A stretch of DNA of 39,043 nucleotides from Gammaproteobacteria bacterium (lineage in GTDB: Bacteria > Pseudomonadota > Gammaproteobacteria > Magnimaribacterales > Magnimaribacteraceae): contig DQKS01000053.1 of NCBI GenBank assembly GCA_015660645.1, forward strand, positions 1-39,043. Reading direction: 5' to 3'. The notes beneath the pieces are model-generated. The model ran no database searches, was not told where the DNA came from, and was given only the letters and a program-made list of their open reading frames with translations. A program made the position numbers and the translations under genes. Positions 24,996-29,990 of this stretch are shown one piece after another. Within the stretch, counting starts at the first letter, position 1, and each line of letters starts with the position of its first letter.

Positions 24996-25679
24996 CTACC
25001 AGATAATCTCTTGAAAGTTATTTTCTTTTAAAAATTTGTTACACTTCGGAAAATGATTATTCCCAAGAAAGCCTCTGTGAGCTGAAAGCGGCGACGGATG
25101 AGAAGATTCCAATACAAGGTGTTTTGTTTTATCTATAAAAGCTCCTTTCTTTGAAGCATTTTTTCCCCATAACATAAAAACTAATTTATCAGTTTGGTCC
25201 AGAGTGCGTATTATTTCATCAGTAAATTTCTCCCACCCCATATTAGAATGAGATCTAGGCAGGCCCTCTTCAACCGTCAAGATACTATTTAAAAGAAGTA
25301 CTCCTTGTTTGGCCCATCCAATTAAAGAGCCATTGGAGGATTCCAAGCCATTGGTACTCCTCAGAATTTCTTTATAGATATTTTTCAGTGAAGGAGGCAA
25401 TGCCACACCTGGATTAACTGAGAAAGAAAGCCCATTAGCTTGGCCCTGATGCATATAGGGATCCTGTCCTAATATTACCACCCTAACATTATGTAAAGGA
25501 GTGGCATTCATAGAGGCAAACAAGTTTTCTGGTTCAGGAAAAATCTTCTTGCCTGAACTTCGTAATTCAAACAAATTCTTATTCAGATTTATCATATATT
25601 CTTTACTAAACTCTGAATTTAATACCCTTCCCCAGCTTTCTTCTAGAGTTGGAAAAGCGTTAATTTGTTTATCTTCCAT
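24996..25679 (-). CDS. ung: Uracil-DNA glycosylase
   Basis: A 227-residue base-excision repair enzyme that removes uracil from DNA. The catalytic water-activating motif GQDPYMHQGQANGLSFSV contains D73, and the C-terminal SSHPSPLSAHRGF contains H194. Both are complete family 1 UDG signatures. Length is standard. Upstream lies the long AT-rich gap with DnaA-box matches; downstream it converges on ygfZ with a 4-base gap. Confidence 0.96.
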   Translation of the reverse strand: MEDKQINAFPTLEESWGRVLNSEFSKEYMINLNKNLFELRSSGKKIFPEPENLFASMNATPLHNVRVVILGQDPYMHQGQANGLSFSVNPGVALPPSLKNIYKEILRSTNGLESSNGSLIGWAKQGVLLLNSILTVEEGLPRSHSNMGWEKFTDEIIRTLDQTDKLVFMLWGKNASKKGAFIDKTKHLVLESSHPSPLSAHRGFLGNNHFPKCNKFLKENNFQEIIW

Positions 25680-25741
25680 CTATAAATATATTAGTATAAA
25701 AAAAAGAAAGGTGGCAATAATAAAAAAAAATTTATAAATTT

Positions 25742-25963
25742 TTATCCACAATTTCTGTGGATAAGTCTATGGATAAGTTTTACTTATCTAGATAATGCTT
25801 TTGTGGCAAAGGAGTGTCAACAGATTGTACAAATTTTAACCTAATATAAAAATTACTAATATAATCAATAACTTATATTTTAAGCCTTTTTTTGTGCAAA
25901 AAAAATTTGGTTTTTAAAAGTTAGTTGAAAAACTTGACTATACTCTAAGATTTATGTGTAAAA
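25742..25963. promoter_or_regulatory. Cluster of DnaA-box matches
   Basis: TTATCCACA (25742-25750) and its inverse TGTGGATAA (25756-25764) are perfect DnaA boxes facing each other across 5 bases. TATGGATAA (25768-25776) is one base off. TGTGCAAAA (25893-25901) and TGTGTAAAA (25955-25963) match the relaxed consensus TTWTNCACA on the other strand. Several sites in about 220 bases, in the longest gene-free region, suggest true DnaA binding, though AT-rich DNA raises the chance rate for the relaxed sites. Confidence 0.5.
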
Positions 25964-26124
25964 GATTAAGATATTAGGGTTTTTTTTATAAGCTCAAAAT
26001 CTGATGTAGGATTTTAATAGCAAATACAAGGAGTTAGCAACAAGGTTTAAACTTAGAAAAACTAATAGTCCAAATCAAAGAAAATAATTACTTCCTAAAT
26101 ATTAACTCACAGTTAGCTCTCAAT

Positions 26125-26193
26125 ATTATTTATAGAAATTAACAATTCCTAACAGCAATAAAAAGAATGGGTTATTGAATTTCTATAAATAAT
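26125..26193. repeat. Perfect 16-bp inverted repeat with nested hairpin downstream of serA
   Basis: ATTATTTATAGAAATT (26125-26140) recurs inverted as AATTTCTATAAATAAT (26178-26193), separated by 37 bases. Inside, CAATAA (26156-26161) and TTATTG (26172-26177) form a second small hairpin directly against the right arm. As RNA on the minus strand the structure begins 16 bases after the serA stop, so it may end or protect that transcript. It lacks the GC-rich stem and clean T-run of a classic terminator. Confidence 0.55.
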
Positions 26194-26208
26194 CTTATAA
26201 CTCATAAC

Positions 26209-27408
26209 TTAATCATTATTATCTTTTAAAAGTCTTACATTGATTATATTTTCAATTGACGCAAGAGTTTTTATAGCCTCTTCTTCTACTGCATTTTCTA
26301 TATCAATTATGCTATAAGCAATGTCACCGCTACCAACATTTATCATTTCGGCAATGTTAAGACCTAAATTACCAAGAGAAGTTGCTATTTGACCAATCAT
26401 GGCCGGCACATTCTTATTGATTATAGTAATACGGTTTGTTGTTGTACTTTTTAATCGCACATTAGGGAAATTTACAGAATTCTTAATATTTCCACTTTCA
26501 AGAAAATCAACTATCTGATTGACCGCCATCACAGCACAGTTTTCTTCAGCTTGAAATGTACTTGCCCCTATATGAGGTAATAAAGTTACATCTTTATGAT
26601 TATTAGCTCTTTTAATCAAGTCTGGTGTTGGAAAATCTGTTATAAAATTATCCAATTTATTAGAATCAAGAATTTCTAAGACATCGTCTGTATTAACAAC
26701 CTCATGACGGGCAAAGTTTAGAAGGGACACCCCTTTGCAGTGACTCAGAAGTTCTTTATTAATAATCCCCATGGTTGATTCGAGCGCCGGAATGTGGAGA
26801 GTAATATAATCTGAATTCTTAAATAATTCTTCTAAAGATTCAGCAGGAATTACTTCGCTTGGAAGCCTCCACGCAGCTTCTACGGAAAGAGCTGGGTCAT
26901 ATCCAATAACCTCCATATCAAGAGCGACACCCATTTTTGCTACCCTTGATCCTATGGCTCCTAGACCTACAATCCCTAGAGTTGACCCTGCTAATTCTTT
27001 TCCTTTAAACAATTTCTTATTATCTTCAAGATATGGCTCGAGATCTTTTATATCAGATAGATGCTTCAAACCATTAACAAAATTAATACTAGGAAAGATA
27101 TTTCTGCTAGACAACATGAGGCCGGCAAGTACCAATTCTTTTACGGCATTTGCATTAGCACCAGGAGTGTTGAAAACAACAATGCCTTTGTCGGTACATA
27201 AGTTGACAGGAATATTATTAACTCCCACCCCTGCTCTAGAGATTGCCCTAAGTGATTTAGTAAGATGATTTTTATTTAACTTAGTGCTTCTAACTAAGAT
27301 TCCATCTGGTTCCTCAGAAGCTTCTGAAATATAACAATTGGTTCCATTAAATTTATCTAGCCCAATAGGAGAAATATTACTGTAGGGTCTGACTTGGAAA
27401 TTGGTCAT
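26209..27408 (-). CDS. serA: D-3-phosphoglycerate dehydrogenase
   Basis: A 399-residue NAD-dependent enzyme that commits 3-phosphoglycerate to serine synthesis. The Rossmann motif GLGAIGSRVAKMG is near residue 150, and the catalytic histidine lies in LLPHIGASTFQAEENC. A C-terminal ACT domain (about 325-395, with AEMINVGSGDIAYSIIDI) suggests serine feedback. The block LLNFARHEVVNTDDV carries the substrate-site Arg in a form lacking the usual RGG. A possible AGAGGA ribosome site lies about 12 bases before the ATG. Divergent from argF across 99 bases. Confidence 0.93.
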   Translation of the reverse strand: MTNFQVRPYSNISPIGLDKFNGTNCYISEASEEPDGILVRSTKLNKNHLTKSLRAISRAGVGVNNIPVNLCTDKGIVVFNTPGANANAVKELVLAGLMLSSRNIFPSINFVNGLKHLSDIKDLEPYLEDNKKLFKGKELAGSTLGIVGLGAIGSRVAKMGVALDMEVIGYDPALSVEAAWRLPSEVIPAESLEELFKNSDYITLHIPALESTMGIINKELLSHCKGVSLLNFARHEVVNTDDVLEILDSNKLDNFITDFPTPDLIKRANNHKDVTLLPHIGASTFQAEENCAVMAVNQIVDFLESGNIKNSVNFPNVRLKSTTTNRITIINKNVPAMIGQIATSLGNLGLNIAEMINVGSGDIAYSIIDIENAVEEEAIKTLASIENIINVRLLKDNND

Positions 27409-29904: not shown

Positions 29905-29933
29905 TTTATATATAAACACTTATCCACAGTAAA
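29905..29933 (-). promoter_or_regulatory. Putative glpK promoter with a perfect DnaA box in its spacer
   Basis: On the minus strand, TTTACT (29928-29933) and TATAAA (29905-29910) are 17 bases apart, fitting sigma-70. The DnaA box TTATCCACA (29920-29928, plus-strand reading) covers half the spacer and touches the -35, so bound DnaA would compete with RNA polymerase. The same site lies about 50 bases upstream of the first NrdR box of nrdA, on the other side. Confidence 0.45.
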
Positions 29934-29961: not shown

Positions 29962-29990
29962 TTGTAATTTACTATAAAACACAGTATCTT
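29962..29990 (+). promoter_or_regulatory. Putative nrdAB promoter
   Basis: TTGTAA (29962-29967) and TATCTT (29985-29990) are 17 bases apart, each matching consensus in 4 of 6 positions. The -10 element lies inside the first NrdR box, so NrdR binding would shut the promoter. Predicted transcription start near 29997. Confidence 0.45.

Follow-up and report, generated by a model that had tools for sequence, protein, structure and literature searches.

The window, a stretch of 39,043 nucleotides of DNA, is contig C5 of a 102-contig, 1.416-Mb assembly (86% complete) of a SAR86-order genome. Its largest gap between 39 listed nonoverlapping open reading frames (ORFs) separates ung from a serA-like gene, and within this gap lie three closely spaced DnaA boxes, followed by a Fis-like 15-mer and an IHF consensus site (Table 1).

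The intergenic region between ung and serA

An initial annotation of the window had singled out this gap as its longest intergenic stretch, and the ORF list agrees (529 bp versus 179 bp for the runner-up, which holds a tRNA). The features it had described there are also present, namely, a perfect inverted pair of DnaA boxes 5 bases apart, a near-match box beside the pair, and weaker boxes with two mismatches. The best NCBIfam match of the serA-like gene is TIGR01327, with a score below that model's cut-off, and this gene is not a constant neighbor within 1.5 kb. An Rfam search of positions 25400 to 26500 gave zero matches, and we rejected a structured RNA in the gap on this basis.

Table 1. 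Coordinates of the element and its flanking genes in the window
Feature	Position	Strand	Remarks
Intergenic region holding the element	25680..26208	.	529 bp; between ung and the serA-like gene
ung, uracil-DNA glycosylase	24996..25679	-	NCBIfam TIGR00628 and NF003589 over cut-off; box I side, constant neighbor
serA, phosphoglycerate dehydrogenase-like	26209..27408	-	PF02826 and PF00389 over cut-off; other side of gap
DnaA box I, TTATCCACA	25742..25750	+	exact consensus
DnaA box II	25756..25764	-	perfect box; inverted to box I, 5-bp gap
DnaA box III, TTATCCATA	25768..25776	-	near match; direction as box II, 3-bp gap
Fis-like 15-mer, GTACAAATTTTAACC	25827..25841	.	fits GN3AW5TN3C; 50 bp past box III
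IHF consensus site, AATCAATAACTTA	25863..25875	+	fits WATCARNNNNTTR; 86 bp past box III

Single DnaA boxes occur near chance frequency in this A/T-rich window, with 14 matches at one mismatch or fewer versus 11.0 expected; the ordered box triplet (here termed the core) has a single match at three mismatches or fewer in the window and none in 100 dinucleotide shuffles. The box I sequence TTATCCACA occurs 12 times in the 1.416-Mb assembly and forms a close pair only at this locus. The 15-mer past box III is called Fis-like on the basis of its fit to GN3AW5TN3C, which we take to be the Fis consensus.

Elsewhere in the window, a perfect DnaA box (29920-29928, plus strand) lies 61 bp before the start of nrdA at 29989. 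Boxes also precede nrdA at a similar distance in two relatives, G007 (967743) and G036 (305471, minus strand). In E. coli, nrd is under DnaA control.

Conservation and gene neighborhood of the core

Conservation of the boxes in related genomes, which the initial annotation had named as a check, proved extensive: the core was found in 53 of 61 relatives drawn from four families (f1, the window's own, to f4), and a reversed-pattern control was found in none of the 61. By coordinates, the core adjoins ung, just upstream of it, in all 53 core-bearing relatives; seven of the eight relatives without a core also have no detected ung, and in the eighth (G020) ung is truncated by a contig start. All nine positions of box II are invariant in the 53 order-level cores, and boxes I and II together are invariant save for one last base of box I, with zero compensatory changes; box III varies more than either. 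This pattern bears on whether the inverted boxes are the stem of a terminator hairpin after serA. The minus strand does fold as RNA better than its shuffles (z, -4.15), but a terminator scan found none, and near-invariance without compensatory changes fits a protein site and not a stem. We rejected the hairpin for these two reasons and regard it as extremely unlikely.

A further 113 named stretches match the SAR86-type pattern, with titles that are almost all SAR86 cluster bacterium. This set overlaps with the 61 relatives, so the two are not independent, and since the genomes share ancestry, none of the conservation counts represents independent events. Divergently oriented ung lies on the box I side, 14 to 143 bp from the core, in 106 of the 113; the named loci without this neighbor are L264, L271, L287, L304, L309, L314, and L328, several of them with the core near the edge of the slice. 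Three contigs with a SAR86-type core are titled Hydrogenothermaceae (L264), Dehalococcoidia (L287), and Flavobacteriales (L324, where the core adjoins ung), and these are probably mis-binned. A named isolate, Hydromonas duriensis, carries two SAR86-type cores (L304 and L328) ∼48 kb apart on one contig, without ung in the slices.

When one locus was taken from each of 16 genera, only three conserved islands appeared: the core, the Fis-like 15-mer, and the IHF site. Among the named loci (n = 112, as one of the 113 ends too soon after the core), 96 have an exact IHF consensus at offset 84 to 87, versus 5 exact matches at all other offsets from 0 to 136, and 87 have an exact Fis 15-mer at offset 49 to 51; L031, L033, and L034, which duplicate L177, L172, and L176, were excluded from motif counts. 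At order level, the 15-mer is exact at 49 to 51 in 30 of 53 loci (8 of 28 in f1, 15 of 17 in f2 and f3 together, and 7 of 8 in f4), and the IHF site is exact at 84 to 87 in 34 of the 45 loci of f1 to f3 and in 1 of 8 in f4. We also sought a second DnaA-reactivating sequence (DARS) in SAR86: in G007, if a palindromic shift of the core on its own position is set aside, the next-best place has 7 mismatches, and G029 alone has a separate second site, at 3 mismatches.

Beyond the order, we sampled 369 genomes from across the class, including four SAR86-order genomes, all matching; 257 of the 369 have the core motif (three mismatches or fewer) and none has the reversed pattern. Many of these class-level genomes have at least two core sites. 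A search of 30 class-level loci, each with at most 1.5 kb of flank, gave no match to ung, ygfZ, serA, argF, uvrB, bioD, ybhK, mutH, rppH, ptsP, ygdT, or ygdQ; a neighborhood shared with DARS1 or DARS2 was rejected, none of their neighbor genes being matched at these 30 loci. The left neighbors at 41 class-level loci (40 distinct places, as L215 repeats L149) include one ten-member cluster, of which the two members scanned are PriA-like, and other neighbors scanned match Lon, ribosomal protein L31 (rpmE), and ProS. The core lies upstream of the clustered gene at L131, L132, L133, L150, L151, L152, L154, L155, L211, and L216, with L150 and L216 being the two scanned.

The association with ung raises the question of whether the element is a DnaA-responsive operator through which DnaA, IHF, and Fis couple ung transcription to the replication cycle. 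That ung flanks box I in 106 of 113 named loci and 53 of 53 core-bearing relatives speaks for this reading, as does a promoter-like minus-strand site (25820-25792) from which transcripts would begin just short of box III. The number of promoter-like sites is close to that expected by chance, though (6 versus 4.5), and the distance from core to ung ranges from 14 to 143 bp while the spacing within the element is fixed. Elsewhere in the class, moreover, the core sits beside other genes: an ung match was found at 0 of 30 loci, and some of the 41 have a priA-like, lon, rpmE, or proS gene as neighbor. We therefore consider a dedicated ung operator unlikely; given its invariable neighborhood the element could nonetheless serve ung, and regulation of this gene could be a second role of a DARS element.

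Position relative to the replication origin

The initial annotation had proposed the locus as a candidate oriC or, more broadly, a DnaA-binding locus or DnaA reservoir. An origin would be consistent with DnaA boxes inside an A/T-rich gap near which gene direction partly changes, and the described gene-direction bias is broadly as stated. GC skew, the check that the initial annotation had itself proposed, points elsewhere in relatives. In G007, a single-contig genome of the same family, the cumulative skew minimum (1,591,520) falls ∼0.4 kb on the circle from dnaA (start, 123) and the maximum falls at 786,466, while the ung locus (963,763) lies 0.6 of the way round the circle, inside one replichore. 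Skew is -0.065 before the element and -0.074 after it; because the sign is the same on both sides, the gene-direction bias is not a replication signal. The skew also does not change at the locus in G036, from another family, where over the first 800 of 1,194 kb it is +0.043 before the element (310,142) and +0.055 after it, with a maximum at 619,176.

The usual origin neighbors (dnaA, rpmH, and others) are missing from the window, as the initial annotation had cautioned, and dnaA of the same genome lies on contig C26 with its own upstream boxes. We rejected oriC on the GC skew, and the locus is almost certainly not the chromosomal replication origin. Across six single-contig relatives, the ung locus lies 0.26 to 0.40 of the chromosome from dnaA. 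Like a DARS, then, the element is intergenic, occupying an ORF gap, and its off-origin position in relatives places it between origin and terminus.

A predicted DARS2-like element

The three boxes stand at offsets 0 (+), 14 (-), and 26 (-), an order, orientation, and spacing identical to those of the E. coli DARS1 and DARS2 cores. We equated the E. coli bioD-uvrB and rppH-mutH sites with the published DARS1 and DARS2 through their box layout and their map positions, given as 0.81 and 2.97 Mb in PMC5742627. According to the same source, DARS1 and DARS2 share three equally spaced boxes, with box I opposite to II and III, and head-to-head boxes I and II are a prominent DARS feature. Across the 26 fixed positions of the SAR86 core pattern, DARS1 has 3 mismatches and DARS2 has 5; the best placements in the datA and oriC regions have 8 and 11, respectively. 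The earlier suggestion of a DnaA-binding locus is thus supported and can be narrowed to the DARS type.

These counts also bear on a datA-like, DnaA-inactivating site or a plain titration site. In E. coli datA, which is also off-origin, DnaA boxes are likewise accompanied by an IHF site (PMC5742627), but the datA region lacks such a triplet, with 8 mismatches of 26 at best, and the head-to-head arrangement is the DARS trait described in that paper. For titration, three strong boxes are few. We rejected datA by box geometry, and this pair of readings is very unlikely. The DnaA reservoir of the initial annotation is still tenable as such, but the exact DARS geometry together with the Fis-like and IHF sites favors a catalytic site.

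The genome itself encodes an Hda-like protein, DnaA, and Fis, the last scoring over its cut-off; assignments of Hda and IHF are by best score, several of them below curated cut-offs. Two DnaA residues named for DARS activity in PMC5742627, D269 (sensor-1 Asp) and L290 (AID-2 Leu), are conserved in its DnaA. The 86%-complete assembly yielded only an HU-like protein and no IHF subunits, and G007 and G036 have proteins typing best as HU, IHF alpha, and IHF beta. The DnaA proteins of the window's genome, G007, and G036 (L332, L344, and L044) have Gln at the position of E. coli Arg245, in the B motif, associated with single-strand DUE binding.

Family f4 keeps the core and the Fis-like site (7 of 8), but just one of its 8 loci has the IHF site, and its genomes have 0 or 1 HU/IHF-type protein each, with all three of those typed being HU-like. 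The exception is G043, where the IHF site is present though the single HU/IHF-type protein is HU-like, which speaks against strict co-loss. In the f4 loci (L198 to L205), box III is altered, with a GGGGAAAA-type end, in 8 of 8, alongside the loss of most IHF sites and with no IHF detected.

Taken together, the box geometry, the conservation, the off-origin position, the conserved Fis-like and IHF sites, and the presence of Hda, DnaA, and Fis genes make it very probable that the element is a DARS of the DARS2 kind, predicted from sequence to occur once per chromosome in the SAR86 order. Observations against this reading include the order of the sites, which is core-Fis-like-IHF here and core-IHF-Fis in E. 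coli, and the Fis 15-mer, which is exact in only 8 of 28 loci of the window's own family. A DARS at this locus would act on the ADP-DnaA that Hda produces (RIDA). ADP-DnaA would bind boxes I and II head to head and extend onto box III, with IHF and Fis bending the DNA, stabilizing the complex, and setting the timing; ADP would then be released, and apo-DnaA would leave and bind ATP, such that the supply of ATP-DnaA might rise for the next initiation at the dnaA-side origin.

As far as the literature consulted describes them, DARS are known mainly from E. coli and near relatives, and the comparison in PMC8682772 covers seven E. coli-proximal species. The literature we searched, in which SAR86 was paired directly with IHF (no match) and with the replication origin and DnaA (one listing), yielded no paper on DARS in SAR86; statements on conservation in the original DARS paper fall outside that scope. 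A DARS-type core of constant geometry is now seen in streamlined, abundant ocean bacteria and in the majority of genomes sampled from the class, and throughout SAR86 the predicted DARS, conserved as one copy beside a DNA repair gene, would, if the prediction is true, recharge the start protein DnaA. We place at even weight, for and against, a broader proposal: that the DARS core is of ancient descent in most of the class and not just in E. coli and its kin; that SAR86 runs the DnaA cycle with one copy, rewired to core-Fis-IHF and fixed beside ung; and that one SAR86 family, having lost IHF and most IHF sites, represents a natural IHF-free DARS2-type switch.

Compared with E. coli DARS1, in the bioD-uvrB gap, the SAR86 element has the same box order, orientation, and spacing (3 mismatches of 26), and DARS1 too lies between oriC and terC (PMC5742627). 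It differs in its neighbor, which is ung and not uvrB, and in its IHF site, as our scan of 330 bp past the DARS1 core found no exact or one-mismatch IHF site; DARS1 is reported to be active without added factors (PMC5742627). The likeness to DARS2, in the rppH-mutH gap, includes an identical core geometry (5 mismatches) and an IHF site at a set distance beyond box III, predicted in SAR86 at 84 to 87 bp (96 of the 112 named loci). DARS2 further requires IHF at IBS1-2 as well as Fis at FBS2-3, in the order core-IHF-Fis (PMC4245941). Our own scan placed its IHF-like sites at offsets 58 and 74, 3 bp apart, in agreement with that account, and the SAR86 site thus lies 10 to 13 bp, about one helical turn, beyond the second of them. 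Unlike in DARS2, where Fis sites lie beyond IHF, the SAR86 Fis-like 15-mer precedes the IHF site, between it and the core, and there appears to be one core copy per genome, beside ung. Relative to the known DARS, the single copy, the core-Fis-IHF order, and the ung linkage would thus be the variant features of the SAR86 element.
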